20,290 bases of DNA from Dyadobacter fermentans. GTDB taxonomy: Bacteria > Bacteroidota > Bacteroidia > Cytophagales > Spirosomataceae. The notes under the pieces were generated by a model. The model ran no database searches. It had not been told where the DNA came from and was given only the letters and a program-made list of their open reading frames with translations. The translations under genes and the position numbers were made by a program. The stretch lies in contig NZ_JAHXBN010000042.1 of NCBI RefSeq assembly GCF_019924045.1, positions 1 to 20,290 on the forward strand. The letters run 5' to 3'. Position 1 is the first letter of the stretch, and each line of letters starts with the position of its first letter. This document shows positions 1-18,016 of the stretch, piece after piece.

Positions 1-2088
1 TTCTTCAACGTTGGTATGAACAACACCACGTTCAACGGCACGAACTGGGATCAACCAGGTCTGTATGCCAATAGCGCCATTGCGAGAAGAAATAATACGG
101 GATCATTGCTTGTCAATGGTAACATAGGCGGCGGAAACCCGAACTTCTCGACAACCAGCCCGAGCATTATGTACCATACATTTAAAGACGTTTCGGTAGC
201 TAAGGGCCTCAACGGTGGCGCAGCTGGTACGCCTTATGTACACGGCGCAATCGGCGAGGTAACCGGCGGACATATGTTCGGTTCTAACGCCGGCGATGTT
301 ACATCAGGTGATGATGGCGGTTTTGTTGGTAACATCGGCGAGCTGATCATCTATGGCGCAGGGGCTGTATCGGCGACAGACCGCAATAAAGTAGATAGCT
401 ACCTTGCCCTCAAATACGGCGTAACGTTGGCTGCGGGTACAAACTATACTACGTCCACGGACGCTGTTGTATGGGATGCTACCGCCAACGCGGCTTACCA
501 CAACAACGTGGCAGGTATCGGTAACGACTTCCGTTCGGCATTGCACCAGAAGCAGAGCCGCAACCAGCACACCAATACGAACAATCAGGTAACGATCGGT
601 TTGGGTGGTATTGCTGCAACGAATGATGCCAATACCAACCAGTTGGCTGACGGCCAGTTCCTCATCTGGGGCGACAATGGCAATACCCAGGCCATGACCA
701 ACACGGCTAGCACGTACACGGCATTCGAGTACGAGGGCAGCATCAACAATGCCCGCCGCATGAACCGTATCTGGAAAGTGCAGAATACCAACGTAGCTGG
801 CGAAACGCTCATCCGTTTCCCGCAGGCTTCCGTAGGTACAACCACGCTGACCAACGACGCCTGCGCAGGGTATGTGATCCTGTTCGCGTCCGATGCGGCA
901 TTCTCGGCTAACGTTACGGCTGTTCCGCTGACAGTGAATGGTACCGATTACGAAGCTACCCACAGCTTCCCGAATGGGGCAAGCTACTTCACCTTCGGTA
1001 AGGTGACGCCTATTACGACCGGTACCGTTTACCTGCCGGCAGTGGTCGAGGAAACCACCGAGTACAGCGACAACTGCGGTACCGGCGCGTGGACCTACTT
1101 CCGCAACAGTGCCGACAATTCGCTGAAGCTGCTCGCTACCTCAGGCCTGGCTGCCGACGTACTGAACAACCTCACGGTGAAAATCACTCCGGAAGGCGTA
1201 ACCTACTCCGACGCTGCCAGAACGACCAGTCTTATGCCGCGCATTACCATGGTGACCAACGGCTCATCCACCGCAGTCACAGGCGCAAAGGTGCGTGTCT
1301 ATTACAGCGCCACCGAAATGGCAGCTACGCAGCTTCCGGGCGCCCAGGTGAATGGTTGGTTCAAGTATGAAGGAACTGCCGAAGATGTGATCGCGAATGT
1401 GTATGGTTCAGGGGTACTCGATGCATCCAAAGCGGTACAGCTCACGCCTGACGCAAGCGGCGTGGAAGACGGCGTAAACTACGTGGAATTCCACAACATT
1501 ACTTCTTTCTCATCATTCGTGTACGTATCGACCACCGCCGAATCAGCTCTGCCTGTAACGCTTACTTACTTCAAGGCAGCGAAAGAAGGCGGCACCGCCA
1601 ACCTTGCCTGGGCCACTACCGAAGAAGTGAATAACAAAGGCTTCGAGATCCAGCGCAGCTCAAATGCACGCGACTGGAAGGAGATCGGCTTTGTTGCGAA
1701 CCAGACCGAAGGCGGTAACAGCAAAGGCGCGTTGTCGTACGATTTCAAAGACGCATCGCCATTGGCAGGTACCAACTACTACCGCCTGAAACAAATTGAT
1801 TTCGATGGCAAATTCATGTACAGCTCGGCGGTTGCATTACAATTCGACGGTGCCAAAGGCACATTGTCTGTATATCCTAACCCGGCAGTGGATGGAAGGT
1901 TAACGCTCAGCCTGCCGCAAGCCGGCGAATACAAGCTGTCGATCTTCAATGTATCCGGAGTCCAGGTGTTGAATGCGAATCAGTCAAGTAACATCATCGA
2001 CATCCGGAGCCTGCCCTCCGGCGTGTACGTATTGCGTGTAATGTATGAAAACGGCCAAGCGCACAGCAAAACTTTTGTTGTAAAATAA
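1..2088 (+). CDS. T9SS type A sorting domain exoprotein (5' end outside window)
   Basis: The frame is open from base 1, so the ATG at 16 is probably internal and the gene starts upstream. Numbering from that ATG, residues 1-125 resemble the end of a LamG/concanavalin-like domain. A SYLALKYGVTL motif follows (about 128-138), typical of large Bacteroidota exoproteins. Next come beta-rich segments and, from about residue 510, the module LPVTLTYFKA...LAWATTEE...GFEIQRS...YYRLKQIDFDG. Residues 617-690 form the sorting domain, with YPNP near 620, GVYVLRV, and a terminal TFVVK. In this family the C-terminal domain directs export across the outer membrane by the type IX system and is then cleaved, so the product is likely surface-attached or released. 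The ligand is unknown; carbohydrate binding is possible from the fold. Several antisense reading frames cover it but have no recognisable content. It ends just before a strong terminator. Confidence 0.9.
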   Translation, partial: FFNVGMNNTTFNGTNWDQPGLYANSAIARRNNTGSLLVNGNIGGGNPNFSTTSPSIMYHTFKDVSVAKGLNGGAAGTPYVHGAIGEVTGGHMFGSNAGDVTSGDDGGFVGNIGELIIYGAGAVSATDRNKVDSYLALKYGVTLAAGTNYTTSTDAVVWDATANAAYHNNVAGIGNDFRSALHQKQSRNQHTNTNNQVTIGLGGIAATNDANTNQLADGQFLIWGDNGNTQAMTNTASTYTAFEYEGSINNARRMNRIWKVQNTNVAGETLIRFPQASVGTTTLTNDACAGYVILFASDAAFSANVTAVPLTVNGTDYEATHSFPNGASYFTFGKVTPITTGTVYLPAVVEETTEYSDNCGTGAWTYFRNSADNSLKLLATSGLAADVLNNLTVKITPEGVTYSDAARTTSLMPRITMVTNGSSTAVTGAKVRVYYSATEMAATQLPGAQVNGWFKYEGTAEDVIANVYGSGVLDASKAVQLTPDASGVEDGVNYVEFHNITSFSSFVYVSTTAESALPVTLTYFKAAKEGGTANLAWATTEEVNNKGFEIQRSSNARDWKEIGFVANQTEGGNSKGALSYDFKDASPLAGTNYYRLKQIDFDGKFMYSSAVALQFDGAKGTLSVYPNPAVDGRLTLSLPQAGEYKLSIFNVSGVQVLNANQSSNIIDIRSLPSGVYVLRVMYENGQAHSKTFVVK

Positions 2089-2115
2089 CGGGGCGTATAT
2101 ATATAAGGTGAAAGC

Positions 2116-2150
2116 AAAAACAGGATCCGGAATTCCGGATCCTGTTTTTT
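2116..2150 (+). terminator. Palindromic rho-independent terminator
   Basis: A perfect 24-base palindrome (2121-2144, containing CAGGATCCGG and its complement around AATT) is flanked by A5 on the left and T6 on the right. The RNA would form a GC-rich 10-bp stem, extended by A-U pairs, followed by a U-tract. It lies 28 bases after the stop of the T9SS gene. The symmetric A/T flanks mean it could also stop transcription from the other strand. Confidence 0.85.
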
Positions 2151-2344
2151 ATGAATATATAGCAATCAGGAATGTCAATCTTTTTATTATTGGGATAAAA
2201 CGACCTGTAGGAAGAGCGAAAAATAGATCCTGCAAGTAGTAAAAGAAGGGCGCGATATACTGAGACGGCAATTAGTGCGGCCACTTCAGCAATAAAGTCG
2301 ATTGTATTTTGAGATTTCAGAATGACGGATGGTTACCCGTTTGA

Positions 2345-2580
2345 ACTGGCTTCCGCAATATTTGTCGTCCTGTTCATTGTTGTAGGTATCGACAACCTCT
2401 GCAACGGCGTCTGTAATGCTCACTTCTCTACAGCCAAGGAAATGGCAGTAGTCAATCTGACTTGGGCAGCCGCAGAAGAGTTGAACGAAAGCTTCGAGAT
2501 TAAGTGCCGATTCACGCAAATGGAAAATCGTAGAATTTGCAGAAAATCACGCGGGAGGGGATTGGATAAATAGCCGAGAA
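2345..2580 (+). pseudogene. Decayed fragment of a T9SS C-terminal module
   Basis: This stretch aligns by eye, in DNA and peptide, with bases about 1475-1690 of the upstream T9SS gene. The DNA shares TCATT, GTATCGAC, CTGTAA and GCTCACTTC-like blocks with the region around LPVTLTYF. One frame gives FSTAKE..VNLTWAAAEELN.SFEIK, matching FKAAKE..ANLAWATTEEVNNKGFEIQ. A second frame then gives WKIVEFAENHAGG, matching WKEIGFVANQTEGG. At least two frame changes and the absence of a start, an N-terminal part and a YPNP domain show it is a relic. It is probably what remains of a tandem paralogue or a partial duplication. It is too divergent to be recent. Confidence 0.7.
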
Positions 2581-2740
2581 TCCGATGTTGTGTTAAGCCT
2601 AAACAGAATCTAGATTTTCGGATGCAGTTTTTTAGTGCCCGTAAAGTTATCCCCGCAGATTGACAAGAAAATAATCCACTCTTTCGGCAGCAGTTGCCCA
2701 TTTTTATCTGGCAGCAATGCGGTAGTTAATAGTTTTATCG

Positions 2741-3436
2741 GACATTAAACTTTTAAGCAGAACCTTCGCGGCGAAAGGAACGAAGCTTGCTATCCGTTAT
2801 AATACAGTGGAAACCCGGCCGGATGCGGAGAAAACGTTGGCCGACGTACTGGCCGCCGGAGCGGAGGCCTTCCTGTTTCAAGCGGATCTGACTGATGTTG
2901 GCAATATTGCCCGACTTTTTGACGAAACAATCGGCCGCTTCGTAGCAGTTGACATTGCCATCAATACTGTGGGGAAAGTTTTGAAGAAGCCATTTGTTGA
3001 GACAACCGAAGCAGAGTACGACAGCATGAGCGAAATCAATTCGAAGGTTGCCTACTTTTTTATCCAGTAAGCAGGCAAGAAGCTCAGCGACAACGGTAAG
3101 ATTTGTACTGTGATAACCTAACTGCTAGCGGCGTACGCGGGTCTTTTTCGACCTATGAAGGTATGAAAGCACCGGTTGAGCATTTCACACGCCGCCTCCA
3201 AGGAGTTTGGAGGCCGGGGGATTTCCGTAACGGCAGTCGCTCCAGGGCCTATGGATACCCCGTTCTTCTGCGGCCAGGAAAGTCCCGATGCCGTTGCATA
3301 TCACAAGTCGGCAGCTGCATTGGGCGGACTTACCGATATTAAAGACATTGCCCCGCTGATCGAGTTTCTTGTTACGGAAGGCTGGTGGATTACCGGACAG
3401 ACAATCTTCGCAAACGGAGGTTATACAACCCGCTAG
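2741..3436 (+). pseudogene. Broken short-chain dehydrogenase/reductase (FabG-like SDR)
   Basis: Fragments in two frames together spell most of a classical SDR. They run SRTFAAKGTKLAIRYN (about 2756), then FQADLTDVGNIARLFD, DIAINTVGKV (the position of the usual NNAG/NTVG motif), INSKVAYFFIQ, GKICTVIT, STYEGMKAPVEHFTR (Y and K of the catalytic YxxxK), SKEFGGRGISVTAVAPGPMDTPFF and a C-terminal GWWITGQTIFANGGY. Lesions: the N-terminal TGxxxGxG cofactor loop is missing; in-frame TAA codons lie at 3068 and 3119; and a short out-of-frame stretch at about 3140-3190 is later compensated. The intact relatives are cytosolic NAD(P)H-dependent oxidoreductases of about 250 residues. No functional product is expected. 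Family assignment is firm; the original substrate is unknown. Confidence 0.85.
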
Positions 3437-3476
3437 TCTCCAGGGTGATACAGGGTTTTTATCAATACTGATTTTT

Positions 3477-3524
3477 GGCAGGCCACGCGATTTTCGTCCC
3501 GGCCTGCCGCTGTTTGTTTATTTT
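3477..3524 (+). terminator. Probable terminator of the SDR relic
   Basis: The arms GGCAGGCC (3477-3484) and GGCCTGCC (3501-3508) pair perfectly over a 16-base loop and are followed by a T-rich run (GCTGTTTGTTTATTTT). It sits 40 bases after the SDR stop codon, the expected place for that gene's terminator. The loop is long, so efficiency is uncertain. Confidence 0.5.
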
Positions 3525-4480
3525 GCAAACAAGGGGCGGCGGACATCGGCGTCAACCCCGGTAGACACATTGATTTGTAACAACTACCCAATCAATTTAC
3601 ATGCCATACATCTGCTGCATTTATTTCAGCCTTCTTTCTACGATGATCGGATCTGGTCAACACATGAATAATGGTTCAAACCTTTTATTTGTAAGGCACA
3701 TTCCGTCGAGGAGGCGGGGTGTTTTTTGCTCTCAAACAGGTTCCTTTATCCCCAAAACAGTTTATCTTCATGGCAGACCCCCTAAAAAAAGCTGTTTACA
3801 TCACCGGAGGACAAACGATCCGTTTGAACTATCACAATGACTGTAAAAAAAACTAAGGGATTTGAAATGTATTTTTCTGCTGCTGATTATAGCATTATAT
3901 TATTTGCCAAGCAACGGAAAGTGATCGATAAACAAACAATCGGATACCGGGGAAGTCTGCTTGTTCGCTGTGGGCGGCAAAAATATCGATATGCTGTGCA
4001 TGGTGTCCATGTAAGTTGAAAAGGCCAACTGGCGACCCTTAGTTTTACATTTTTCGAACAAATGTGACATGCCTGCATAATGACTCTTTTATATACTAGC
4101 TGGCTTCCGTATTTTGTACTGGACACCAAAGTCGATAACGACAGGAAGCATCGTGATTTCGGATTGTTTATCGCTGGCGTCCGAGGGCGAGAGTACTCTG
4201 CCTGCATCGGCGAAGTGAAAATGCAGTGAATTAGCGATTAACTGTAATTTTTTTGCGATCGGTTTTCAAGCGTTCATTTCAGCCGAAAACTTCGCCGGCT
4301 TACTGCTTGCACTATCAGCCCGCTTTCGCGGCGGTGTTCGACTACTTTGTCATCATTATCGTCATACATTTCCAACTATAGTGAAAGCGCAGTGAACGCT
4401 TTTCCGAAGTTCCCGAACTCTGCTCTAATATTCTTTCCGGACATCAACATCGAAGCCAGTTCCTATCTGAAATCAGCATC
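3525..4480. other. About 950 bases without a supportable gene
   Basis: Only short, low-quality open frames occur on either strand. None shows a family motif or continues through a frame change into something recognisable. Given its neighbours it is probably further decayed coding sequence, but nothing in it could be named. Confidence 0.5.
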
Positions 4481-4606
4481 ATAACTTTTTCGGGATTTTA
4501 TCCCAGTTCGGTTTTTCATTGCCTTCCAGGTTGAGCAAGAATGTGTACTGCTTTTTAGAGGATTCACCTAAAAGCGTGCCACCGGTGATAGTGAAGCCAA
4601 AGACAT
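4481..4606 (-). pseudogene. Unidentified C-terminal coding remnant
   Basis: The minus strand reads as a coding-like tail of about 41 residues (VFGFTITGGTLLG, then KQYTFLLNLEGN, ending WDKIPKKL and a TGA stop). It has the mixed composition of a real protein end, but no start lies upstream because the terminator hairpin at 4608-4642 interrupts it. The family is not recognised. It may be a chance frame. Confidence 0.25.
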
Positions 4607-4607
4607 G

Positions 4608-4642
4608 AGAAAGGGTGCAAGAATCGTTCTTGCACCCTTTCT
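4608..4642 (-). terminator. Hairpin downstream of the RCC1-like T9SS gene
   Basis: A perfect 16-bp stem (AGAAAGGGTGCAAGAA at 4608-4623 against its complement at 4627-4642) closes a 3-base loop. It lies 34 bases past the stop of the minus-strand gene. Read on the minus strand, the stem ends in CCCTTTCT but is not followed by a long T-tract. It is probably the transcript's 3' end; a processing or protective hairpin is the alternative. Confidence 0.6.
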
Positions 4643-4676
4643 ATTTTACGGGCTTTGCATTACTTCTCTGCTGCGC

Positions 4677-7600
4677 TTACTTCATGAAGAAAGTACAAGT
4701 TTGCGTTTCTCCACTGGCTGAGATGATCCGTAAAATGTACATTCCTCTGGCTAATCCGCGTACGTCGAGCTGGCGCTGGTTTTCCAGACGAAGTTGCATG
4801 ACGCGGGTTCCGGCAAGGTTATTAACTTCTATCCTGTATGAACTCGCCCCCGACGGACCGATCGTAAGTTTGCCGTCTACGACCGGATTAGGGTAAACAA
4901 GGAGCTGATCGCCACCGTCCAACCGGAGCGACCGGATTTGGCTGTACGCAAATGTTCCGTCGTTGTCGACCATCTTCAAACGATAATAGCTTACTCCTTT
5001 GTGCACCGAGGCGTCCGTAAAGTCATAGTCAAGTCGGCTGGTACTGCCTGTTTCAGATGATTTTGATGCTACAAAACCTATTTTGGTCCAGTTAGATGCG
5101 TTGGTGCTGCGCTCGATTTCGAAGCCCCTGCTATTTTCCTCGCTGGTGGTGGCCCATGCCAGGTGCGCGGCGTTTTTCTCGGCGGAAGCTTCGAAGCTGA
5201 TCAGCGTCACAGGCAATGCAGATTCGGTTGCAATGCTGTAAGCCACAGGGGAACTGGTTGCGCCCGCTGCGTCCGTCATCGAATAGGTAAAACCAAATTC
5301 GTTTCCGGCGGTACCACTTCCTACTTGCCCATAAACCACCAGGCTGTTCACATTGAAATCGGGGATCGTAACCGGGCCGCCGGATACGTCTATCTGCTGA
5401 ATGCCGGTCACTCCGCCGAAGTCGTAGTACACCAGGGTATTCGCGTTGATCGAGTGAATGGTAAATGTGGTAGAAGTTCCGGTAGCACAAGTACCTGCTG
5501 CCGCACAATCTTCTGCATCCGAACCTGAAAGCGAACCACCGGTCGGATAGCCGGTCAGACTCGATGATGATGCCGGGATAGACTGATAACCCGCTTCCGC
5601 TGGAAACGCCGCCTGAGGTGTCGCGCTAAATGCGACATTAGGAACAGTATAACTCTTTGGATCCGCCACTGGTGGGGTCTGGATGCCAAAATTAACGGGA
5701 TCCAAAGTAGTTGTAGTCGCCGGAAGCGCATTCAGGCTTCCCAGATTAACGGTTCCGGTATTATTGGAAGGTGTAACGGAAGTAGTTCCGCCCCGGTTGG
5801 TGCCAGTGTACTCGTAGCCATTCAGTGGAGTATCCGCAGCTGTAACAGTGTCGCCGATATTCCGGCTGCCATTCGTCAGCACCACCGAATAATCTCCGAT
5901 GCTGGTCAGCAAGCCACTGCGTATCTCGATATTATAAGAACCATCGGCTGCTACTTCCACCGATGCTACCACCTTGCCCTGCGGGTCGATCAGGTTGGCC
6001 CATAAGCCGTTCGCAGTTTCGCTTTCCGTACCGTCCACAATCGCATCACCGTTCGCGTCTATCCAGACGTTGCCCGGGATGCTTATCATCCGTTCCACGT
6101 TGACGAGCTGGTTTACGACCACGGCACCGCAGGTAGCACTGTTGATAATATAATTAACCCGCAATGTACCAGCCGATGGAATGCTGGCTATCCCGGTGAC
6201 AGGGTCGATGGTAGCACCTGCAGCCGTAGTAAGGCTGGCATCGATGGCGTAAGTGCCTCCGGATGGCGCTCCTACGAATGTAACCGAACTGCCGGAGAGG
6301 AAAGGCCCTGATGAAGACACCGTTAAGCTGGCGTCGGTCGTGACAGCCCCGCACACCTGTACGGCGCTGGTGCGGAAGTGCACGGTATTGTCGGTAACAT
6401 CGGTATCGATATTGTCGCCCATACTGCCATGGATGCGGTGACCTATATAGCCGAAGTCGTCTTCGCATTCACGCAGCATCATGGTAGTGTGCCCCCCTGA
6501 TTCAAGTGAGATAATTCCGGAATTCGTATACCCTGCTTCAAAGCTGACCGGCTCTCCCGGATCCACAGGTGTTGATCCGCTCACACTCCCATGCACGCCC
6601 CTTCCCAATGCGAAACCGCTTTCCTGCCCCCAGTTAAATATCTTTTGGCCGTTGGTCAACACATTGATAAAACTGAAAAGCCCGTCATGTTCCTGAGGTG
6701 ATATCCATTTGATATCATTCATGACCGGTCCCGAGGCCGAGATATAGCGTGGCTGTGTCCAGGTAGTGGGCTGATTCGCGTTGGTGGTGTCCCAGTTTCC
6801 GAGCTGTTTCCTGTCGTTCCCCCCCAGGGCGAACAAGCTGCCATCCTCGTAAAGTACGTAATAAGTGATGGTGTTGGTAGACGCAATGGTCGCGCCAATC
6901 ATCTTAATTTTCGCCCCGGCGCCGGCAGGCGGTAAAGTCAAGGGAACAGCTCTTGTCCGGTTCGCGCTCGTGGCGGCTATGCCATCCCAGGATCCTGCGC
7001 CATAAGCCCACAAGCCACCGGAATTATCCAAGGCAACTACCCCGGCACGCGTGCCCCTTGCAGCGACGATATCCGTGAGATCACCTCCTGACTGCTTTTG
7101 CACTACATTCCAGGACAAATTATTGCCACCATTTACCCCCCGAACCCACGCGCTTTGAGACAGGGTGTATACCCTTCCGTCACCGCAGGTGGTGATCACG
7201 ATCGAACCGGAGGTAACAAACATCATTTTAACATTTGCGGCGGTAATCCCTGCCGGAAGGCCGATGGATAGTTGCTGGAACGGAGTGACATTCACTGCTG
7301 GCTGTCCGGTTTCCACAATTACATTATTGACGTTAGTCGTCAAAGCTGCATCCACGACGGCCCCTGCCCGGCCCCATACCCAAAGTTTGTTATCGCTGGT
7401 AAGCAACACGTACTGCACATTGTTGCGGCTTGACGTACCGACGCCCATTTTTAACGGAGTACCGGTAAGTCCGGGATAGTTGGTTGCATTTACTTCCGTC
7501 GGAATAAGGTGGGCACCTGCACCATCCGCCTTCGAGAGTTCCCCCCATACTTTGAAAGAGCCGTCGATATCCCTCACCGCCGACGAGTGCCAGCCCGAAA

Positions 7601-7772
7601 CGTAGTTGTCGTATTCGAGATTCGAAGCGACCGTAGACGCATAACCGAAATTACCGTAATCCTGACAACCGGATGCACTATAACAGCCCAATTGGGCAAA
7701 TAATGAATGATTGACCGAAAGCAGCAGGAACCAAAGAAGCCCTCTGGTTAGTACCGTAAAGTTTGATTTCAT
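4677..7772 (-). CDS. Secreted T9SS protein with RCC1-like repeats and an SdrD-B-like domain
   Basis: 1031 residues. The N-terminus is a signal peptide (charged MKSNFTVLTR, hydrophobic GLLWFLLLSV, cleavage near LFA-QLG at 26/27). Residues about 60-435 hold repeated motifs of the form LWVWG, VYTLS, LWAYGAGSWDG, LFALGGNDRKQLG and IFNWGQESGFALGRG, the signature of RCC1/ATS1-type beta-propeller blades. Residues about 565-640 resemble an SdrD-B/CNA-B Ig-like domain, beginning GNVWIDANGDAIVDG with acidic, possibly calcium-binding positions. The tail repeats the LPVTLISF...GFEIERS...YYRLKMVDNDG module (853-940), then the type A sorting domain (YPNP at 960-963, GMYILRI, TFFMK end). Predicted location is the cell surface or medium. 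A binding or adhesion role is inferred from architecture; no catalytic motif was seen. The ATG at 7772 is chosen because the signal peptide follows at once. Confidence 0.92.
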   Translation of the reverse strand: MKSNFTVLTRGLLWFLLLSVNHSLFAQLGCYSASGCQDYGNFGYASTVASNLEYDNYVSGWHSSAVRDIDGSFKVWGELSKADGAGAHLIPTEVNATNYPGLTGTPLKMGVGTSSRNNVQYVLLTSDNKLWVWGRAGAVVDAALTTNVNNVIVETGQPAVNVTPFQQLSIGLPAGITAANVKMMFVTSGSIVITTCGDGRVYTLSQSAWVRGVNGGNNLSWNVVQKQSGGDLTDIVAARGTRAGVVALDNSGGLWAYGAGSWDGIAATSANRTRAVPLTLPPAGAGAKIKMIGATIASTNTITYYVLYEDGSLFALGGNDRKQLGNWDTTNANQPTTWTQPRYISASGPVMNDIKWISPQEHDGLFSFINVLTNGQKIFNWGQESGFALGRGVHGSVSGSTPVDPGEPVSFEAGYTNSGIISLESGGHTTMMLRECEDDFGYIGHRIHGSMGDNIDTDVTDNTVHFRTSAVQVCGAVTTDASLTVSSSGPFLSGSSVTFVGAPSGGTYAIDASLTTAAGATIDPVTGIASIPSAGTLRVNYIINSATCGAVVVNQLVNVERMISIPGNVWIDANGDAIVDGTESETANGLWANLIDPQGKVVASVEVAADGSYNIEIRSGLLTSIGDYSVVLTNGSRNIGDTVTAADTPLNGYEYTGTNRGGTTSVTPSNNTGTVNLGSLNALPATTTTLDPVNFGIQTPPVADPKSYTVPNVAFSATPQAAFPAEAGYQSIPASSSSLTGYPTGGSLSGSDAEDCAAAGTCATGTSTTFTIHSINANTLVYYDFGGVTGIQQIDVSGGPVTIPDFNVNSLVVYGQVGSGTAGNEFGFTYSMTDAAGATSSPVAYSIATESALPVTLISFEASAEKNAAHLAWATTSEENSRGFEIERSTNASNWTKIGFVASKSSETGSTSRLDYDFTDASVHKGVSYYRLKMVDNDGTFAYSQIRSLRLDGGDQLLVYPNPVVDGKLTIGPSGASSYRIEVNNLAGTRVMQLRLENQRQLDVRGLARGMYILRIISASGETQTCTFFMK

Positions 7773-8004
7773 GCCTAAAAGATTAAGTGATATAAGAAGT
7801 ATTGCGCCTGAGCGCGAATGAGATAATGGAAAGTAACGGTTTTTTTGTCACACAGATGGGTGAAAAATCTGTCAATTTGGTGGGATTAATTTACCACAGG
7901 GGATTTTCTTTGCGGCAGGCTGAATTTTCTTTTCCCGTTTACTGAGGAATCAGGTCTTCTTTTCAGTTGCTGGGGCGTTACGCAAGCGCGGCTAGGCTTT
8001 TTAA

Positions 8005-8700
8005 GAACCGGAATGTTGGCCATTTTTGAGTATAAATGCCTCGTCACCAACGCCCATCCAGATATTTCGCTTCGAGTGTTCAATACACTGTGAGCGGAGC
8101 TGACAGACTTGTAGTTTCTGAACCGGCCCGTATGTTATGTCACATAATAATGCTCTGAAAGTGCCTATCAGCCAAAGCCGGCCGTACGAATTCTCCAGAA
8201 TGTCGGGCATCCCGCCATTGTCCAACTCCTTGTCCCTTCCGCTGGCCGCGGTAGAGTAATGGCAATAACTTCCTGAATCAAGGTTAAAGCTCATCAGCAA
8301 GGTGTTTCCCACCGACCAGAGCGTGCTGTTCCCATCAATGTAAAATTGACATAGTCGGAGGAGGGCCGTAATTTCAGTTCGAAAGATCTGGTCTGCACAT
8401 CCATGATATCAAACAGGAGCGACTTTTTCTGGTCCTTCCCGATCACCCAAAGCTTACCGTCCCTGCTATTACCCCCATGAATTGGCATAGGGAACATAGG
8501 AAATGCCGTTCACTGAAAAAGGCCAGGAAAGCAAACGTGGAGCATTCTGGTAGAAATTGCTGACGCCCAAATAGTAAGCTCCGAGCCAAACTCCACCCTG
8601 CCGATCCGAGCACATGGTTTGAATGTAATTATCGGCCCGATTATATAAATTGCCAGGAGTTGAGCTCTGGACCAGTAGGGGACTGGTCGGTGGACCCGGG
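8005..8700 (-). pseudogene. Shattered beta-propeller sensor of HTCS type (reg_prop repeats)
   Basis: Minus-strand reading frames, broken by stops and frame changes, carry successive propeller blades typical of the periplasmic half of hybrid two-component systems. In order: NYIQTMCSDRQGGVWLGAYY.GVSNFYQNAP (about 8640-8540); tandem stops after NSWG; RDGKLWVIGKD..KSLLFDI; in another frame DGNSTLWSVGN..LMSFNLDSG; then MPDILENSYGRLWLIGTFRALL; and CIEHSKRNIWMGVGDEAFIL. Each matches the D..G.LWIGT..GL pattern of two-component regulator propellers. No Y_Y_Y, kinase or AraC part follows on this strand. In intact relatives this domain senses extracellular carbohydrate or other ligands. It is inactive here. 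Confidence 0.75.
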
Positions 8701-8791
8701 CGCCATTACAACAAAGTACCAGGGGCTAGCACCAAGAGAAGCTCCATTCTGCGAAGATGAGACATGAGCGCTTGTCTGCGGGAGTGTGCCC

Positions 8792-9805
8792 CTATTTCAT
8801 TTTTGCGTTCTGATATTCAGGTTCGACATAGCCACCAGGTACGTAGCGGGAAGTATCGTTAGTGTGCCAGGCGTATACGCCTTGTATCATAATGCCTATG
8901 GCGTGTACATAATCATAGGCCAGATGCTGCCATTGCCCGAAATTGGGTAGATTCTCATGTAAAATCAAAAACTCTTTCAGAAGTTTGTCATGATAATCCA
9001 TCGCCATCGCGTAAGCATCCTTCCAAGAGAGGCCATGCCCCTTCTGCAAGACTTTTACGATATTGATTACATCACCCTCTCTTTTCATTTCTTTGGGTAG
9101 TGAAACGATATCGTTATGTATGCCAATCATCAGGGCCGCCAATGTATGCAACCTCAAAATATGGGTATGTTCTAATACCGTATCTGGCAAGTTGCGAAAA
9201 TCTTTTTGCATCGCAACGTATTTACAAAACGGCAGACCTCCACTGGTATCTTCACGAAGTACTAAATAGACCGGCCATGTCGGGATTGTGTTAGTTGACA
9301 TGTACCGTTTTTCATCCTGATAACCGGTAAGCAGGTTCCCAACACTGGTTAAGAACTTATCAAACAATCGCTGGGGCATCCCACACTGGATAGCTCGGCT
9401 CCTGAGCAAATAGAACTGGCGAAATATACCGTGATCAGCAGGCTCCTTACTATCTTCGCCAGTCAACAATGCCATAATCCTTTCTCTCACGGCACACATC
9501 TGCTCATAGCTGCAATGGTCGAAATAATCATCCATCATAGCTCCGTTTGCCGCAAAACTAGCGATCGGGAACAACTCATCTAAGGTTTTCAACAGTGGCA
9601 AACCACGGGCCGCAATATCGGTCAGCAAATGACTCTTATGCTTCTGCCGGGCATTTTCGGAGTGGAATGCATAGTCGATATCGATCCAATTCCAATAAAT
9701 CTCTCGCATTTCTTGTGCATATGGGCTGATAAGATTGGGGAAGGGATAACTTGGGCGCGGCATATTTTTAAATTGGCCGTAGAATTCTTCTTCATTGGTA
9801 GTCAT
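8792..9805 (-). CDS. Class I terpene synthase (cyclase), bacterial type
   Basis: 337 residues, the normal size for a single-domain bacterial class I terpene cyclase. The aspartate-rich metal motif DDYFD is at 92-96, the NSE triad N231-D-I-V-S235-L-P-K238-E239 is complete, R184 lies about 47 residues before it at the pyrophosphate-sensor position, and R320-Y321 gives the conserved C-terminal RY pair. All elements for Mg2+-dependent ionisation of a prenyl diphosphate are visible, so it should be active, in the cytosol, making a cyclic hydrocarbon or alcohol. Sequence alone does not settle the substrate (GPP, FPP or GGPP); sesqui- or diterpene is the usual case. The gene follows the NRPS-like gene on the same strand after 238 bases containing a terminator, so it likely has its own promoter. 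No prenyltransferase or P450 is nearby. Confidence 0.92.
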   Translation of the reverse strand: MTTNEEEFYGQFKNMPRPSYPFPNLISPYAQEMREIYWNWIDIDYAFHSENARQKHKSHLLTDIAARGLPLLKTLDELFPIASFAANGAMMDDYFDHCSYEQMCAVRERIMALLTGEDSKEPADHGIFRQFYLLRSRAIQCGMPQRLFDKFLTSVGNLLTGYQDEKRYMSTNTIPTWPVYLVLREDTSGGLPFCKYVAMQKDFRNLPDTVLEHTHILRLHTLAALMIGIHNDIVSLPKEMKREGDVINIVKVLQKGHGLSWKDAYAMAMDYHDKLLKEFLILHENLPNFGQWQHLAYDYVHAIGIMIQGVYAWHTNDTSRYVPGGYVEPEYQNAKMK

Positions 9806-9887
9806 ACTAGATAAGGTTTAAATTATGAATGCATCACATTCCAATGGTCTACCAGGTGTCGGGATATCATTAAGGGACACACGAGTG

Positions 9888-9919
9888 CAAAATATCCGTA
9901 CTACCAGCTGGTTTTCAAA
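9888..9919 (-). promoter_or_regulatory. Candidate promoter for the terpene synthase
   Basis: On the minus strand a TTTG (9919-9916) is followed after 20 bases by ATATTTTG (9895-9888), close to the Bacteroidota -33 TTTG / -7 TAnnTTTG pattern but with the first two -7 bases transposed. It lies about 80 bases before the start codon and after the upstream terminator. Confidence 0.3.
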
Positions 9920-9975
9920 TTTGACGTGAAATGGGGCAGATTCATCAGTCAGGCAGTAAATCACCTGTTCAATTT

Positions 9976-10028
9976 GGAAAAAATAGGGCTGACAAGAGCG
10001 CCGTAGATTTAAACTGCCTGTCAGCCCT
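9976..10028 (-). terminator. Rho-independent terminator of the NRPS-like gene
   Basis: The arms AGGGCTGACA (9985-9994) and TGTCAGCCCT (10019-10028) are perfectly complementary over a 24-base loop. On the minus strand the stem is followed by ATTTTTTCC. It begins 16 bases after the stop codon of the NRPS-like gene, so most transcripts should stop before the terpene synthase. Confidence 0.75.
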
Positions 10029-10043
10029 TACAGCTCGGGTCGA

Positions 10044-13000
10044 TCAAGGCGTTGTCAAGAGTGCATCTGTTGACTCGGATTCCTGACGTGCCTCTAGCAG
10101 AACATCCAGGTAATGCAGGTAAGCATCCAATAATTTCTTGTCAAAAACTGGCTCCTGAATACCGCTGCCTTCCAGAAATGTTTTGGTCTGCGCATTATCC
10201 CAGATATAGGTATTCTGATATAACTCGACGGTCGATAAGCCTTCGTGCATATTGTCCTTGAACAGACTGGTGAGCGGATACAGTTCGCATGTGCTGTCGT
10301 TTTCCCACTGCGCACGCCATTCCAGGTAAGGCAATGGTTGCAATGTGACCGTATAGTATTTTTGAAGTAATAAGAAGAACTGTTTAAGGGTAAGATTCTC
10401 GGAAGGCGAAGCAATCAAATTGAACTTCAGTCCCAGACAGTCTGGGTTACCGGTGATGTGTACGACAGATTCAGCTATATAATCTACCGTGATCAGACCT
10501 TCCCTAAGCTCGATCAGGTCCGGGTAGCTGCTGTACCTGAGACACACTTTTACCAGATTGGACCACCATTGGTAGGGCGCGAATGCACCTGTTGTGCTGT
10601 GACAGATCGCATACCCCAGTCGATAGGTAACCACGGGTAGGCCTTCAGACGCGGCTAAGTCCGCAATTGCTTCCATCACATACTTACTTCTTACGTACCC
10701 AATATCTTTGCTGACCGACAGAATGTTCTGTTTGATATCATCCTGCTCGGTCATCACCGTCTTGTGCGTAAATTTGTGTCCCCAGCTATATACAGATATG
10801 GTGGACATGAGCGCAAGGCATTTAAGTCTGATGTTTCCAGCGAATTTAATGATCCGACGAAGGCCATCTACGTTTGGTACTTTGTTATAAGAGTAAGGTT
10901 CTATAAAGTTGACTGAGCTCGCTGAATGATAGATAATGTCGATCGATCCGGAAAGCTCGTCATATTGGTCCCTGGGAAGGCCCATTTCGGGTTGTGTAAG
11001 GTCTCCGACAACCGGGATAATCCTTGTTTTGAGCCCTTCGTCAATGGTAAGGTTGAATTTATTTATTGTCCCGTCGATTTTCATCCAGGCATCGAAGGTA
11101 TTTCTGGCTCTGATAAGGCAATGGATAACAGCATCAGTCCTGACCAACAATTCATGCAGCAAATGGATACCCACAAATCCTGTAATTCCGGTCAGAAAAA
11201 CGTGATGCGGGTTTTTCAAAACACTTCTGTCAAAAGTCCCATGGATAACCGTGCCGGGCGCCAGGTATACATCATTCTGGAGTTCTGTCACCGGTTCTGC
11301 ATCTTCCAGTGGGATATTTGCGGTGGCTTCCTTTCGTTTGCTCAGCATAGCTGCAAGTGCCTGTATCGTAGGAAACTGGTAAATATCCCTCAGATATACT
11401 TTTACTTTTAGCATCTTAGAGATATCCGCGGCCGCAACTGCTACAAGCAGGGAATCGCCGCCAATATCAAAGAAATTGTCGGTGATGTCAACGGCCGCCC
11501 GGTCGAGCAGTTCGCCCCATATACAGGCAATGCACTCTTGCATTTTTGATGCTGGCCCTGCTATGAGACCATCGACGGAAATATCCCGTAATTGCATCTC
11601 ATGCAACCTGCGCGTATCTGTTTTACCGTTGGTATTCAGAGGCATTTTGTCCAGAAATGCAAAATGAGTAGGGATCATATAACCGGGCAACTCCTCCTTA
11701 AGGTATTGACGGATAGCGTTTGCCGCCGCCTTCTCATCGGAAATAAGTTCTCCGGGTGCCGGTACAATGAATGCGATCAGCATTTTGTTTTGCCTGCTGT
11801 TCTCCTTGGCGATCACCGCCGCTGCCCCGACATGAGGTGCTTTCAGCAATACCGTTTCCACTTCCCCCAGTTCGATACGATAACCCTTGATCTTTACCTG
11901 ATTATCGATCCTGCCGATGAATTCGATATCGCCATCCGGCAGCCAGCGGGCAAGATCGCCCGTTTTGTAGAGCTTTTCATTTGCTCTGAACGGGTTGTCG
12001 ATAAATTTCCCGGCGGTAAGTTCCGGGTTGTTCCAGTAGCCTTTTGCCAGGCATACTCCACCAATACAAAGCTCACCGATCTGGCCGGCAGGAAGTGGCT
12101 GCATTTGTGGGTTTACAATGTGTGCCTGGATGTTAGCCAGGGGCTTTCCAATGGTCGAAACATATGCACCATCTGGACGGTTTACCTTGGCGTAGGTGGC
12201 AAAAACGGTACATTCGGTTGGGCCGTAGTAGTCGATCAGGTTGTAGGAGATACGCTTTGTGTCAACGGGTTTTAGTTTTTCACCACCTGTAAAAAGATAA
12301 GATAAAGAAAGCTTTCTGGCTGTTGTATTGAGGACAATATCGGGGACCAGAACGGTTGGTGCAAAGCCGTGGGTAATACTGTGACGCTCATAATAGTCGA
12401 GCAGCCCATCTGCGTTTGTCCGCTCTTCGTTGTTGGCGATATACAATGCGGATCCTGCTGCCAATGAAGACCATATCTCCCAAACGGCGATATCAAAACT
12501 TGTACCAGCGACAAAACTGAGCCGGCTTTCGGCTGTAACGCCGAAATGGACATTATGCCAGCCAACCAAATTCTGTATTGAACCGTGTGCTACCATTACT
12601 CCTTTGGGATTTCCGGTCGACCCTGAAGTATAGATAACATATGCAAGATCTTCCGGTAGCACCGCTACGTTGACAGGTCCGATGGCTTGCTGTTGAACTT
12701 CCTGGTCAGTCAATGTAATAGCCCGGCTGTTTTGCGGCAAAAAAGTCTTGTGATAATGGTCGGTGATCACCAATTGCCCTCCGGCGTCGGACAGAATATA
12801 AGCCAGCCTGTTGGGAGGATAGGCCTGGTCCACCGGAACGTAAGCAGCACCTGCCTTTAAAACCCCTATAATGGACACAATCAAGTCGACGGAGCGATCG
12901 AGCCATATAGGTATCAGTGATGACCGGCCGACGCCTGCGGCCAGCAGACAATGGGCGATCTTGTTGCTGGCTACGTCGAGTTGACTGAATGTAATGCTGG

Positions 13001-13118
13001 TGCCATCACTGGCCACTGCTGTCCTTTCCGGATGCTTCCTGACAGAATTGGTGAATAAATCGAGTAAAGTGCTGTCCCGCCCATAAAGCAAGGCAGAATT
13101 GGTCTGTTTGTTGTCCAT
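10044..13118 (-). CDS. Stand-alone NRPS-like A-T-R enzyme (adenylation, carrier, thioester reductase)
   Basis: 1024 residues, three domains. Adenylation, about 15-505: YTSGSTGNPKG (163-173), DYYGPTE (296-302), YKTGDLARW and GRIDNQVKIKGYRIE (384-415), and the A10 lysine in NTNGK (499). Carrier, about 520-595: FFDIGGDSL with phosphopantetheine serine S556. Reductase, about 638-1000: TGITGFVG (643-650) for NADPH, S772/T773, and Y808-V-R-S-K812. Known A-T-R enzymes load an acid as a thioester and reduce it to an aldehyde, sometimes an alcohol. There is no condensation domain, so a single building block is processed. By manual alignment to GrsA the pocket reads roughly D-I-W-G-F-G-Y-V-F-K; the leading Asp indicates an alpha-amino acid, but the residue cannot be named. 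A phosphopantetheinyl transferase must act in trans. The ATG at 13118 precedes the domain normally and lacks a Shine-Dalgarno sequence. Confidence 0.93.
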   Translation of the reverse strand: MDNKQTNSALLYGRDSTLLDLFTNSVRKHPERTAVASDGTSITFSQLDVASNKIAHCLLAAGVGRSSLIPIWLDRSVDLIVSIIGVLKAGAAYVPVDQAYPPNRLAYILSDAGGQLVITDHYHKTFLPQNSRAITLTDQEVQQQAIGPVNVAVLPEDLAYVIYTSGSTGNPKGVMVAHGSIQNLVGWHNVHFGVTAESRLSFVAGTSFDIAVWEIWSSLAAGSALYIANNEERTNADGLLDYYERHSITHGFAPTVLVPDIVLNTTARKLSLSYLFTGGEKLKPVDTKRISYNLIDYYGPTECTVFATYAKVNRPDGAYVSTIGKPLANIQAHIVNPQMQPLPAGQIGELCIGGVCLAKGYWNNPELTAGKFIDNPFRANEKLYKTGDLARWLPDGDIEFIGRIDNQVKIKGYRIELGEVETVLLKAPHVGAAAVIAKENSRQNKMLIAFIVPAPGELISDEKAAANAIRQYLKEELPGYMIPTHFAFLDKMPLNTNGKTDTRRLHEMQLRDISVDGLIAGPASKMQECIACIWGELLDRAAVDITDNFFDIGGDSLLVAVAAADISKMLKVKVYLRDIYQFPTIQALAAMLSKRKEATANIPLEDAEPVTELQNDVYLAPGTVIHGTFDRSVLKNPHHVFLTGITGFVGIHLLHELLVRTDAVIHCLIRARNTFDAWMKIDGTINKFNLTIDEGLKTRIIPVVGDLTQPEMGLPRDQYDELSGSIDIIYHSASSVNFIEPYSYNKVPNVDGLRRIIKFAGNIRLKCLALMSTISVYSWGHKFTHKTVMTEQDDIKQNILSVSKDIGYVRSKYVMEAIADLAASEGLPVVTYRLGYAICHSTTGAFAPYQWWSNLVKVCLRYSSYPDLIELREGLITVDYIAESVVHITGNPDCLGLKFNLIASPSENLTLKQFFLLLQKYYTVTLQPLPYLEWRAQWENDSTCELYPLTSLFKDNMHEGLSTVELYQNTYIWDNAQTKTFLEGSGIQEPVFDKKLLDAYLHYLDVLLEARQESESTDALLTTP

Positions 13119-13226
13119 GAAATAGCATGATAAAATTTGGTTGATAATGTGAATTGGTGAGAAATCCAGGAGAAAATCATGTTCTCTACAAAAAAAGTCA
13201 AATTACGTCTCGAATCCATCTAATTC

Positions 13227-13941: not shown

Positions 13942-14518
13942 ATGGCTCGAAAAGTACTGATCGTCACCGGTGACGGTGGTGACCGTTAAGAGCACTTTAT
14001 ACCGTGCACCACTCCCAGGAAGCGTGCGTTTCCATGAAGACTGCCGCTCCCGTCAGACGCCGCCTTAACTTCTTAATGCACGATATTGAACCGGGTTGCG
14101 ACACATATGTTGAGCGGCCAGGCTATTGTCTAGACGCAGATTTAAGGATTAGCGAAGTGGCGACAGGCGACTATGATATCATACTCTTGTTTGGCGGCCG
14201 TGCTCCCGAATACCTGCGCAACCACGTAGCGCTGTTGGAGATAGTGCGCGATTTTGACCCGGGAGGCAAATGGGTGTTGGCCGTCTTCCACGGTATCCAG
14301 ATTTTGGTAACAGCCGGATGAGCCGATAACCGAACATTAACGACCTATGGACATGTACGTGCAGAAATCGAGATGGGGATGGCTCATATTCTACCCGGCA
14401 GGCCGTTCGAGATGAAAATATCATAACCGGACAAGCTAGGTAGTCACACCTGGAGTTTTACCAGGAAATCTTTGCATGTTTCAACCAGGTTTCAACAAAT
14501 GTCGCTTCCGACAATTGA
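13942..14518 (+). pseudogene. DJ-1/PfpI family pseudogene
   Basis: The start MARKVLIVTGDGGD at 13942 is stopped at 13987. The body resumes in another frame: MHDIEPGCDTYVERPGY.LDADL, YDIILLFGGRAPEYLRNHVALL and LAVFHGIQILVTAG. After an in-frame TGA at 14319 it continues NRTLTTYGHVRAEIEM. A last frame gives QAVRDENIITGQAR, then SHLEFYQEIFACF, ending near 14518. This is the whole length (about 190 residues) of a DJ-1/PfpI glutamine-amidotransferase-like protein, a family of cysteine-dependent deglycase, hydratase or protease-like enzymes. The nucleophile motif, normally AICHGPQIL, reads AVFHGIQIL, so the cysteine is now phenylalanine (one base change). Several stops and shifts rule out a functional product. 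Confidence 0.85.
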
Positions 14519-14606: not shown

Positions 14607-14945
14607 TTACTTGTTCGTAAACACCGGCAGGTGGCTTGCTGACCCGTCATCCCTGATAGGCTGAATCTGATTAAGCAGTTCCATATCGTTCTGGCTGATT
14701 TTGAAGCCGACGTCCGCATTACTTTTCATGTGTGCGGGGTTGGCGGTTTTGGGTAATGGCAACAGATCCAGTTCCAAAGGATAGCGGATACCCAGTTGCG
14801 CGATCGAAACATAATATTTGTCTGCAATCGCCTGCATCTCTTCGTTTTAAACAGCTCTCCATGGCCGATCGGAGAATGGGCGTGGACGAGGATGTCTTGC
14901 TGTTTACAATATTTGATTAATTCATATGGCATATATTCAGTTAGC
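14607..14945 (-). pseudogene. Truncated aldo/keto reductase (C-terminal third)
   Basis: Minus-strand peptides YMPYELIKYCKQQDILVHAHSPIGHGELFK and, in a second frame, MQAIADKYYVSIAQLGIRY, LLPLPKTANPAHMKSNADV, ISQNDMELLNQIQ and SHLPVF match the C-terminal part of aldo/keto reductases. These are NADPH-dependent carbonyl reductases of about 270-280 residues; LPLPKTANPEHMKSN-like sequence binds the NADPH phosphate. The frame change falls inside TTTAAAACG and can be explained by one lost A: restoring it gives FKNEEMQAIADKY. The N-terminal two thirds, with the catalytic Asp, Tyr and Lys, are absent, so it cannot be active. Confidence 0.82.
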
Positions 14946-15017: not shown

Positions 15018-15677
15018 CTAGGATGCTCCCTGTTTTCTTAGCACCCTTTCGAGGTCGATGATGTTATGTACTTTGGTCTTTCTGTAAATATTGGATTTGA
15101 CAGTGCTGATCGTCGAGCTGCGCCTGTCCAGGGTTTGTGCGATCTCCGAAGTGGTCATTCCCCTGATCAGGCACCCCGCTACTTTTTGCTCCAGACCGGA
15201 TAATGTCCCGGGCTGACGCTTCTTTTGATCAAGGTTCTTTTGGGTGATTAACTGGTAGGCGATTTCACTATTAATATAATGTAAGCCGGCAGCAAGAGAA
15301 TCGATACACATATCAAGTTCACGGGAGTCGAAATCCTCCGGCAAATATCCTCCAATACTTTCCCGGAAAAAGGTGAGCAAGAAGTTCATCGATTTTCGAT
15401 TATCGTACACCGCGATGGCGGCTTGCGGGCTGTAACGCCGCAGACGATTGGCAAGGTTAATTATCTCGACATCGGGAACGCCCGCACCGAAAACAAAGAT
15501 GATCGCAGGTGAGCGGCCATGGTGTTTTTTTTCCAGATCCTGGCAGTTAACCGCTTCAATGACCTCCAAAGCGGCCCGGCTTTGGGATAAAGTTTGCCTA
15601 AAACCCCTTTTGAACACAGGACGAGGATCAACAATAGCAATTAAATCTACATTGGTGGAGGTTGGGGGTGTTTTCAT
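15018..15677 (-). CDS. LuxR-type DNA-binding regulator with a degenerate receiver domain
   Basis: 219 residues. Residues 10-130 follow the fold pattern of a NarL/FixJ receiver (IAIVDPRPVFKRGF, later GGYLPEDFDSRELDMCI and AAGLHYINSEIA). Residues 158-215 are a LuxR helix-turn-helix: LSGLEQKVAGCLIRGMTTSE, IAQTLDRRSSTIST and VKSNIYRKTKV. The acidic pocket is reduced to a single Asp (D17, in VDPR instead of DD). The phospho-acceptor region reads IIFVFGAGVPD, with Phe/Val where Asp is expected, and the conserved Lys before the last strand is replaced (GYLPED). It is therefore probably a phosphorylation-independent or ligand-controlled transcription factor. It has no partner kinase in cis on its strand; the HTCS gene lies divergent. 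An inverted repeat just upstream is a candidate operator. Confidence 0.85.
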   Translation of the reverse strand: MKTPPTSTNVDLIAIVDPRPVFKRGFRQTLSQSRAALEVIEAVNCQDLEKKHHGRSPAIIFVFGAGVPDVEIINLANRLRRYSPQAAIAVYDNRKSMNFLLTFFRESIGGYLPEDFDSRELDMCIDSLAAGLHYINSEIAYQLITQKNLDQKKRQPGTLSGLEQKVAGCLIRGMTTSEIAQTLDRRSSTISTVKSNIYRKTKVHNIIDLERVLRKQGAS

Positions 15678-16261: not shown

Positions 16262-18016
16262 TTGAAAACGTTGCTTGTCTTTTTTCGGGCATTGCTCGTT
16301 CCTGCATTCACCAGTTCCGAGTACCTTACCCAGGCCCAAATGGCGCCCGGGTGGAAGACCTGGTACGCGTATCTGGGCTACCTGCTGTTGACTGCCATGG
16401 TCATATTTGCAGTTACAAGGTTCTTCTGGCTCCAAAGCTCATTCAGGAAGGAAAATGCGCTGAACCAGGCCAAGCTCGACTTCTTCACGAATATATCTCA
16501 CGAAATCAGAACGCACTTGTCGTTGATCATCGGCCCGCTGGAAAAAGCATCTCAGCAGGCTAAGGAGGGTAAGAATGTTGACCATTATCTAGGCTACGCC
16601 AGAAGTAACTCCGACCGCTTGATGCTGTTGGTCAATGAACTGCTTGATTTTCGCAAAATCCAGAGCGGGAGCGTGCGGCTGCAAGTGCAGGAATATGATG
16701 TTGTCAAGGTTATTCAAAATGTCATTGCGGCATTCGAGCATTCGGCGATTGAGCGGGATATCCAGACTTCACTTCTTTGTCCCGATGAACCTGTTATGCT
16801 TTGGTTTGATTTGGGACAGATGCAAAAGGTTTTCTACAATCTGATAAGCAATGCTTACAAGTTTAGCCCCGAACGAGGCAAGGTTACAGTGCGCATTGCT
16901 GAATTTTCCAATGAGGTGCTTTTCACAATTGAGGATAATGGCAAAGGCATATCCGAGGAGCATTTGCGCAAATTATTTACCTATTACTACCAGGCGGATT
17001 CGGAAAAACCGGGTTACGGATTAGGGCTAGCATTATCTAAGAGTATTGTAGAGCAGCACCGGGGGTATTTGACAGCCGAAAGTCGCCTGGCAACCAAGTT
17101 TTCCCACGGAAGCACGACCCTTTCGATCCGGATGCTCCGTGAAAACCGGCATTTCGCTCCTGATCAAATCGCCGTGAAAAGTAACGAATACTTCGGCAGC
17201 ATTCCGGGCGCTACGCAGGCAGTGCCCGTTAGCGACGATCCATTTCCTGAAAAGCAAGCCAACACGATGCTGATTATCGAGGACAACGATCAGCTACGCG
17301 TGTTTATCAAAGAGCTTTTCCGGCACGAATTCAATACACTGGAAGGCGAGAACGGGCTGCAGGGGTTGGAACTCGCCAACGAGCATCTGCCCGATGTTAT
17401 TCTTTCGGACGTGATGATGCCGGGCATGAATGGTTTGGAGCTATGTAGCCGGTTGAAAAAAAATATTGCGACTTCACATATACCGATAGTGCTGCTGACC
17501 GCCCGAACCCAAAATAAGCAGATTGTCGAGGGGCTTGCTTCCGGAGCGGATGATTACCTGGTTAAACCATTCGACCCGAGAATTCTTGAATTGAAGGTCG
17601 CGAACCTTATCCGCCTCCGGAACGAGCTGAAAGAATTTTATCGCGAATCTGTCACATCCGACCAGCATACAGCAAACAGTATAGCCCAGGACGTGAACGA
17701 TGCATTTATCGGCAAGCTCAGAGCGCTGCTTATTGAGAACATTTCCGATCCGAAATTTGGTGTCAATGAACTGGCTTTTAAGGTCGGGATGAGTGTATCT
17801 GCACTTTATAGGAAATTGAAATCACTGACTGGAATGACAGTTAATGATTTCACAAAGGCAATTCGGCTCAGTGAAGCTAAAAAGCTATTGGAGTCGGGGG
17901 TGTATAATGTAGGTGAAGTGGCCACCATCGTAGGGTTCGAGGATAGCAGGCATTTTAGTAAGGAGTTCGCAAAAGCATTTGGTAAGAAGCCTAACGAAAT
18001 CAAGAAACAAAGCTGA
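16262..18016 (+). CDS. Sensor-less hybrid two-component regulator (HisKA-HATPase-REC-AraC)
   Basis: 584 residues from a TTG start; the frame is closed by a TGA at 16220, so it cannot extend far. A membrane segment (about 35-57) follows the WKTWYAYLGY motif normally found after the Y_Y_Y domain. Then: HisKA with NISHEIRTHLSLI (H80), HATPase with ISNAYKFSPERG (N197), IEDNGKGI and YGLGLALSK, a receiver (MLIIEDN, phospho-acceptor D383 in LSDVMMPGMNG, K435 in VKPF), and an AraC domain (about 482-584; ELAFKVGMSVSALYRKLKS, EVATIVGFEDSRHFSKEF). In full-length HTCS proteins of about 1300 residues, a periplasmic beta-propeller precedes this half. Here it is missing, although every catalytic residue is intact. 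It may be a 5'-truncated gene still expressed, or an unusual short regulator. Its target genes are unknown; the divergent secreted-protein gene downstream is one possibility. Confidence 0.88.
   Translation: MKTLLVFFRALLVPAFTSSEYLTQAQMAPGWKTWYAYLGYLLLTAMVIFAVTRFFWLQSSFRKENALNQAKLDFFTNISHEIRTHLSLIIGPLEKASQQAKEGKNVDHYLGYARSNSDRLMLLVNELLDFRKIQSGSVRLQVQEYDVVKVIQNVIAAFEHSAIERDIQTSLLCPDEPVMLWFDLGQMQKVFYNLISNAYKFSPERGKVTVRIAEFSNEVLFTIEDNGKGISEEHLRKLFTYYYQADSEKPGYGLGLALSKSIVEQHRGYLTAESRLATKFSHGSTTLSIRMLRENRHFAPDQIAVKSNEYFGSIPGATQAVPVSDDPFPEKQANTMLIIEDNDQLRVFIKELFRHEFNTLEGENGLQGLELANEHLPDVILSDVMMPGMNGLELCSRLKKNIATSHIPIVLLTARTQNKQIVEGLASGADDYLVKPFDPRILELKVANLIRLRNELKEFYRESVTSDQHTANSIAQDVNDAFIGKLRALLIENISDPKFGVNELAFKVGMSVSALYRKLKSLTGMTVNDFTKAIRLSEAKKLLESGVYNVGEVATIVGFEDSRHFSKEFAKAFGKKPNEIKKQS

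Follow-up and report, generated by a model that had tools for sequence, protein, structure and literature searches.

Very probably independent neighbours: a terpene cyclase gene and a stand-alone A-T-R gene in Dyadobacter

Do a terpene cyclase gene and a reductase gene of non-ribosomal peptide synthetase (NRPS) type constitute one biosynthetic locus when they lie side by side? The question is raised by the window analyzed here, a stretch of 20,290 nucleotides (positions 1–20290 of contig NZ_JAHXBN010000042.1) from the 8.0 Mb genome of a soil bacterium of the genus Dyadobacter. It encodes a class I terpene cyclase and a stand-alone enzyme that combines adenylation (A), carrier (T) and thioester reductase (R) domains, the A-T-R enzyme. 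A first-pass annotation had assigned both enzymes, with their coordinates and common strand, and had proposed a possible small metabolite locus comprising both. The assignments hold, as the open reading frames (ORFs) are exact and their domains and motifs intact (Table 1). The joint locus is not supported, given the lack of conserved adjacency and of enriched co-occurrence in relatives. The two genes are very probably independent single-enzyme metabolic genes that became neighbours, by chance or by recent rearrangement, in one Dyadobacter lineage.

Distribution and linkage of the two genes in relatives

Genomes holding the cyclase gene numbered 44 (24 Chryseobacterium, 14 Chitinophaga, two Dyadobacter, two Olivibacter, one Parapedobacter and one Streptomyces). 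The pair is adjacent in two of them, the window's genome and D. jiangsuensis, which represent one lineage. Adjacency in relatives, the check that the first-pass annotation had put forward, was found in none of the other 42. At the cut-offs used, these two genomes are also the only ones among 48 Dyadobacter and among 222 of the family that hold either gene, and both hold them side by side. The cut-offs for the A-T-R gene were strict (1e-100 to 1e-250) and may miss fragments or diverged copies. The whole window aligns to D. jiangsuensis DSM 29057 (contig NZ_PYAS01000022.1, hereafter contig 22; positions 30757–51036, reversed) with 98.7% identity and 20 gap columns. A draw of 395 genomes across the phylum yielded the A-T-R gene (E up to 1e-150) in four, namely the window's genome, two at 57% identity and one at 38%, and the cyclase gene (E up to 1e-20) in three, the window's genome and two with paralogues of 29–34%.

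Twelve cyclase loci came from a scan of named genomes by short exact patterns, which relatives may escape: D. jiangsuensis (99% identity), Parapedobacter tibetensis (79%), two Olivibacter (76–78%), three Chryseobacterium (60–62%), four Chitinophaga (57–59%) and one Streptomyces (54%). Apart from D. jiangsuensis, none of the 11 fetched stretches holds an A-T-R orthologue, one of them having an A domain only (31%). A genome-wide search of the same 12 genomes gave matches at 1e-100 in seven. Full-length orthologues (at least 51% identity) occur in three: D. jiangsuensis, Chryseobacterium sp. Bi04, where 357 kb separate the two genes, and Chitinophaga sp. Ak27. The A-T-R protein of Olivibacter jilunii is only 36% identical and its pocket is different. 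In Chitinophaga the cyclase gene is present in 14 of 79 genomes. A genome-wide search of four of these 14 found the A-T-R gene in one; in the other ten no A-T-R orthologue lies closer than ~20 kb to the cyclase gene, adenylation-domain matches of at most 34% being found in two.

Chryseobacterium provides the largest sample. Among 173 genomes the A-T-R gene is found in 68 and the cyclase gene in 24 (at 26 places), with both in 12, which is not an enriched co-occurrence (12/24 vs. 56/149; Fisher p = 0.27). In seven of the 12 co-holders a single contig carries both genes, with 290 kb to 3.1 Mb between them; in the other five, judging by the distances to the contig ends, no less than 95 kb must separate them. 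The two genes have different sets of neighbours in this genus. A magnesium-chelatase-like gene is close to the A-T-R gene in 12 of 14 stretches, which we selected ourselves, and the neighbours of the cyclase gene in 21 stretches differ from those of the A-T-R gene, any one being common to at most nine. Some of them are housekeeping genes that, by their N-termini, resemble fusA, rpsG, rpsL or fabI. This lack of linkage across relatives leads us to regard the pairing as local and confined to a single Dyadobacter lineage, where the adjacency may have arisen by chance or by recent rearrangement.

Some points weigh against this conclusion. In Chitinophaga sp. Ak27 (contig 21, 690–711 kb) the two genes are on the same strand, ~16 kb apart; the A-T-R ORF is intact (51% identity) and the cyclase gene is interrupted by one in-frame TGA. 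The chance of one pair as close as this among the 13 co-holders outside Dyadobacter is ~8% by rough arithmetic, so that there may be a weak tendency of the two genes to lie together. The absence of the A-T-R gene rests on the best candidates scored per genome (4, 3 or 2, depending on the search). Lastly, the window and D. jiangsuensis differ by two changes in the cyclase gene and 15 in the A-T-R gene (dN/dS 0.83 for the latter). With so few differences, purifying selection could be shown for neither gene, and dN/dS between the two genomes was discarded as proof of function.

The two enzymes and the segment between them

The 238 bp that separate the A-T-R gene from the cyclase gene contain a hairpin of a 12-bp stem and three inner pairs, followed by a U-run (−22.7 kcal/mol, z −2.05; 6 of 200 shuffled sequences fold equally well or better). 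A generic terminator scan of the window does not list it because its loop exceeds the length allowed by the scan, which returned only five sites vs. 5.1 expected by chance. The terminator reported in the first-pass annotation is thus present as a shape. It would argue against a shared transcript, and the predicted separate transcription remains probable: the A-T-R transcript probably ends at this hairpin, and the cyclase gene would be transcribed separately.

Table 1. Features of the window and the evidence for their assignment.
Feature	Position	Strand	Evidence or remark
Class I terpene cyclase, 337 aa	8792–9805	−	Terpene_syn_C_2 (PF19086), E 6.6e-29
Hairpin then AUUUUUU, before the cyclase gene; A-T-R transcripts likely terminate here	9985–10028	−	Fold prediction
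Stand-alone A-T-R enzyme (ATRed-type minimal NRPS), 1024 aa	10044–13118	−	Pfam/NCBIfam domains, motifs, orthologues
Terminal thioester reductase (R) domain	10107–11204	−	TGITGFVG and YVRSK
Carrier (T) domain	11343–11528	−	FFDIGGDSL
Adenylation domain	11622–13055	−	Pocket read as DIWFFGYVFK
Broken short-chain dehydrogenase/reductase (SDR) gene	2785–3436	+	Contig 22 of D. jiangsuensis has, at another place, an intact SDR gene with 74% DNA identity
DJ-1/PfpI gene fragment	14004–14321	+	Pfam match
Aldo/keto reductase C-terminal fragment	14607–14837	−	Pfam match under the model's cut-off
LuxR-type regulator	15018–15677		Near the A-T-R gene; no Pfam receiver-domain match
Hybrid histidine kinase with AraC domain	16262–18016		Near the A-T-R gene

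The cyclase has the three signatures of bacterial class I terpene synthases, the aspartate-rich motif (DDYFD at residue 92), the NSE triad (NDIVSLPKE at 231) and the RY pair (at 320), all intact, and scores 101.5 bits against PF19086 (cut-off 23.7). Its GC content is 0.444; the D. jiangsuensis contig has 0.508 over its first 13 kb. Related terpene synthases were studied in Chryseobacterium and Chitinophaga (accessible parts of PMC7383580 and PMC12723471). The orthologue of Chryseobacterium polytrichastri DSM 26899 is 59.2% identical to the window cyclase and has six residues (I66, A87, G90, A91, A192, M308) that PMC8518897 names for CpPS; the pocket list of that paper runs to 13 residues in full. 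CpPS is the polytrichastrene synthase, a diterpene synthase acting on geranylgeranyl diphosphate (GGPP) that was originally named linalool synthase (same source). We take the C. polytrichastri gene to be that of CpPS because of the six matching residues, with no accession match behind it. Five of the six residues are shared by the window cyclase, which has Gly in place of the Ala found in CpPS at position 192. From the identity and these residues our best guess is a GGPP diterpene synthase, probably of the polytrichastrene/wanjudiene type, that would turn GGPP into a polycyclic diterpene. Since an exchange at residue 192 alters the CpPS product (PMC8518897, as far as accessible), the product of the window cyclase may differ from that of CpPS. 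As a separate observation, two genomes of the genus Chitinophaga and one locus of the named scan have two to three paralogous cyclases (26–31% identical to the window cyclase) within ~13 kb of its orthologue.

The A-T-R protein comprises AMP-binding (residues 22–362), AMP-binding_C (419–499), PP-binding (531–592) and thioester reductase (639–1004) domains; Pfam lists neither a condensation nor a thioesterase domain in it. Motifs A3, A5, A7, A8 and A10, the carrier GGDSL, TGxTGFxG and YxxxK were all found. With A, T and R in one protein and motifs in all three domains, the enzyme is a minimal NRPS of the ATRed type. The ten pocket positions, located by GrsA numbering, are nearly invariant in the 34 Bacteroidota copies compared, DIWFF(G/A)YV(F/Y)K. 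The 32 Chryseobacterium copies read, out of 68, have DIWFFGYVYK (13), DIWFFAYVYK (10) or DIWFFGYVFK (9), and Chitinophaga sp. Ak27 has DIWFFAYVYK. The Burkholderia multivorans homologue, one of the two Burkholderia matches listed, has DIWFFAFIFK and the one Pseudomonas aeruginosa copy read has DVWFFAYVFK. Among the best 20 of 441 plasmid records, three proteobacterial A-T-R homologues stand at 42–44% identity and the others at 35% at most.

The near-fixed pocket and the three homologues that are clear of the rest indicate that the window enzyme probably belongs to a coherent orphan family sharing one substrate, with orthologues in Chryseobacterium and Chitinophaga and homologues in Burkholderia and Pseudomonas. 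We propose, tentatively and without favouring it, that this is an undescribed and widespread family of amino-acid reductases, with a pocket near-invariant from Bacteroidota to Burkholderia and Pseudomonas, making the same small molecule throughout, perhaps a pyrazine or amino-alcohol signal. The Asp and Lys positions of the pocket fit an alpha-amino acid, which is probably the substrate class. A substrate prediction from the pocket code was attempted and none was obtained: we know of no specificity code that matches this pocket, and a full-text literature search for DIWFFA, DIWFFG and DVWFFA found no paper. The enzyme would adenylate one alpha-amino acid, load it onto its own carrier domain and reduce it with NAD(P)H, so that an amino aldehyde is released that would dimerise to a pyrazine or be reduced to an amino alcohol, following the proposal made for ATRed (see below). 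Pyrazines are emitted by C. polytrichastri (PMC7756357, accessible part); they were considered as A-T-R products and cannot be credited to this enzyme, because nothing in that genome matches the A-T-R enzyme with the cut-offs applied.

Alternative explanations and genomic surroundings

Cyclase genes combined with genes of the methylerythritol phosphate (MEP) pathway offer another view of the origin of the window cyclase. Contig 22 of D. jiangsuensis has the gene order TC2-IDI-IDS-IspH-DXS-IspG-TC3 (TC, terpene cyclase) at 60.8–70.4 kb, ~19 kb from the cyclase gene. In Parapedobacter tibetensis the orthologue of the window cyclase (78%) is itself part of such a cluster (984–13161, or 0.98–13.2 kb), IDS-DXS-IspH-TC-DXR-TC-TC-orthologue-TC-TC, which runs in one direction and has six cyclases. 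Between the two clusters, TC3, DXS and IspH are 77%, 75% and 69% identical. DXS and IspH of D. jiangsuensis thereby resemble those of Parapedobacter more closely than they do the nearest copies located in the window's genome (60% and 57%), a pattern suggestive of transfer. The window cyclase could then have become detached from an MEP-fed cluster of several cyclases that was acquired horizontally, with the A-T-R gene as an unrelated neighbour; its GC content below that of the contig would fit. This is compatible with two independent genes, and we hold it to be possible, at somewhat under even chances, in view of what speaks against it. The MEP/TC2/TC3 part is missing from the window's genome, which has distant homologues only: its contig C113 matches D. 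jiangsuensis 53507–60726 and then diverges, and no linkage of the cyclase gene to duplicated MEP genes was found within that genome. Identity between the two clusters is just 50% for the prenyl synthases and 52–58% for TC2, and no MEP-gene match occurs in 40 stretches around the cyclase gene in Chryseobacterium and Chitinophaga.

A new two-enzyme pathway of the D. jiangsuensis lineage, in which the diterpene is coupled with the amino aldehyde or alcohol, would account for genes that are adjacent on the same strand and retained in two genomes, and for the looser pair of Chitinophaga sp. Ak27. It is very improbable given the separation of at least 95 kb in all 12 Chryseobacterium co-holders, the hairpin between the genes and the fact that none of the seven main ORFs of the window that were scanned encodes an enzyme for joining, oxidation or transport. 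One joint metabolite locus was rejected on the absence of conserved linkage and of enriched co-occurrence and, again, on the hairpin. We also give hardly any credence to an A-T-R enzyme of the pvf/ham type making a diazeniumdiolate-like signal: HamD has the same architecture (PMC5878181, accessible part), while no ham-like partner is present among the seven main ORFs scanned or among 18 annotated features around the 42% homologue of a Pseudomonas plasmid. Nothing about a cyclase/A-T-R pair was found in the literature on Dyadobacter terpene synthases, Chryseobacterium NRPS-like enzymes and thioester reductases, and bacteroidete MEP/terpene clusters, in which subscription papers are thinly covered. 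Two independent genes remain the preferred explanation.

The gene relics that the first-pass annotation had placed around the pair are borne out in part. Two SDR fragments (2807–3070 and 3176–3436) and the DJ-1/PfpI fragment give Pfam matches and the aldo/keto reductase fragment matches below the cut-off; a further possible relic (8001–8312) has no match in the Pfam scan. The four fragments occupy the same places in D. jiangsuensis (93–99% identity), which rules out an error of a single assembly. Regulator and kinase genes similar to the LuxR-type regulator and hybrid kinase of the window recur along the D. jiangsuensis contig. Window positions 1–2088 and the right end of contig C113 match two parts of one large gene for a protein sorted by the type IX secretion system (contig 22, 48949–55128, in D. 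jiangsuensis), so that the window contig and C113 probably adjoin in the genome.

These results remove a false lead, as the two genes are not to be treated as one pathway. The orphan A-T-R family is found in 68 of 173 Chryseobacterium genomes, and a single purified enzyme could reveal the substrate of the family. The bacteroidete terpene clusters with MEP-pathway genes of their own are a second better lead.

Comparison with known systems

The best NCBIfam model for the A-T-R enzyme is that of the myxochelin synthetase MxcG (NF038078), of which the part 457–1432 aligns with a score of 536, far from the cut-off of 2300. MxcG also carries a condensation domain. An orphan A-T-R gene is found beside cupB genes on the Pseudomonas aeruginosa plasmid CP109682 (42% identity over 96% of the query); its annotated neighbours include SDR, response regulator and fimbrial genes, and no terpene cyclase. 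Its PAO1 counterpart is PA4078, which is mentioned in two papers, in one of them as a row of a proteomics table, without tested function.

HamD of the fragin/valdiazen cluster is likened to the window enzyme by its A-T-R architecture alone; HamD acts within a seven-gene cluster (PMC5878181, accessible part), whereas no diiron N-oxygenase or other pvf/ham accessory gene was found among the seven main and six small ORFs of the window scanned, the rest of the genome not having been searched. ATRed of Xenorhabdus indica, also likened by architecture alone, is like the window enzyme a monomodular A-T-R without condensation domain. According to the accessible part of PMC7586950, promoter exchange, together with expression in E. 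coli, linked it to a phenylalanine-derived pyrazine, and release of an amino aldehyde was proposed, followed by formation of the pyrazine dimer or of an amino alcohol. Phenylalanine is the substrate proposed for ATRed, whereas the window enzyme is characterized by its DIWFFGYVFK pocket. The window cyclase, which differs from CpPS at residue 192, has its class I motifs in common with CpPS and with the wanjudiene synthase CwWS (accessible parts of PMC8518897 and PMC7383580).

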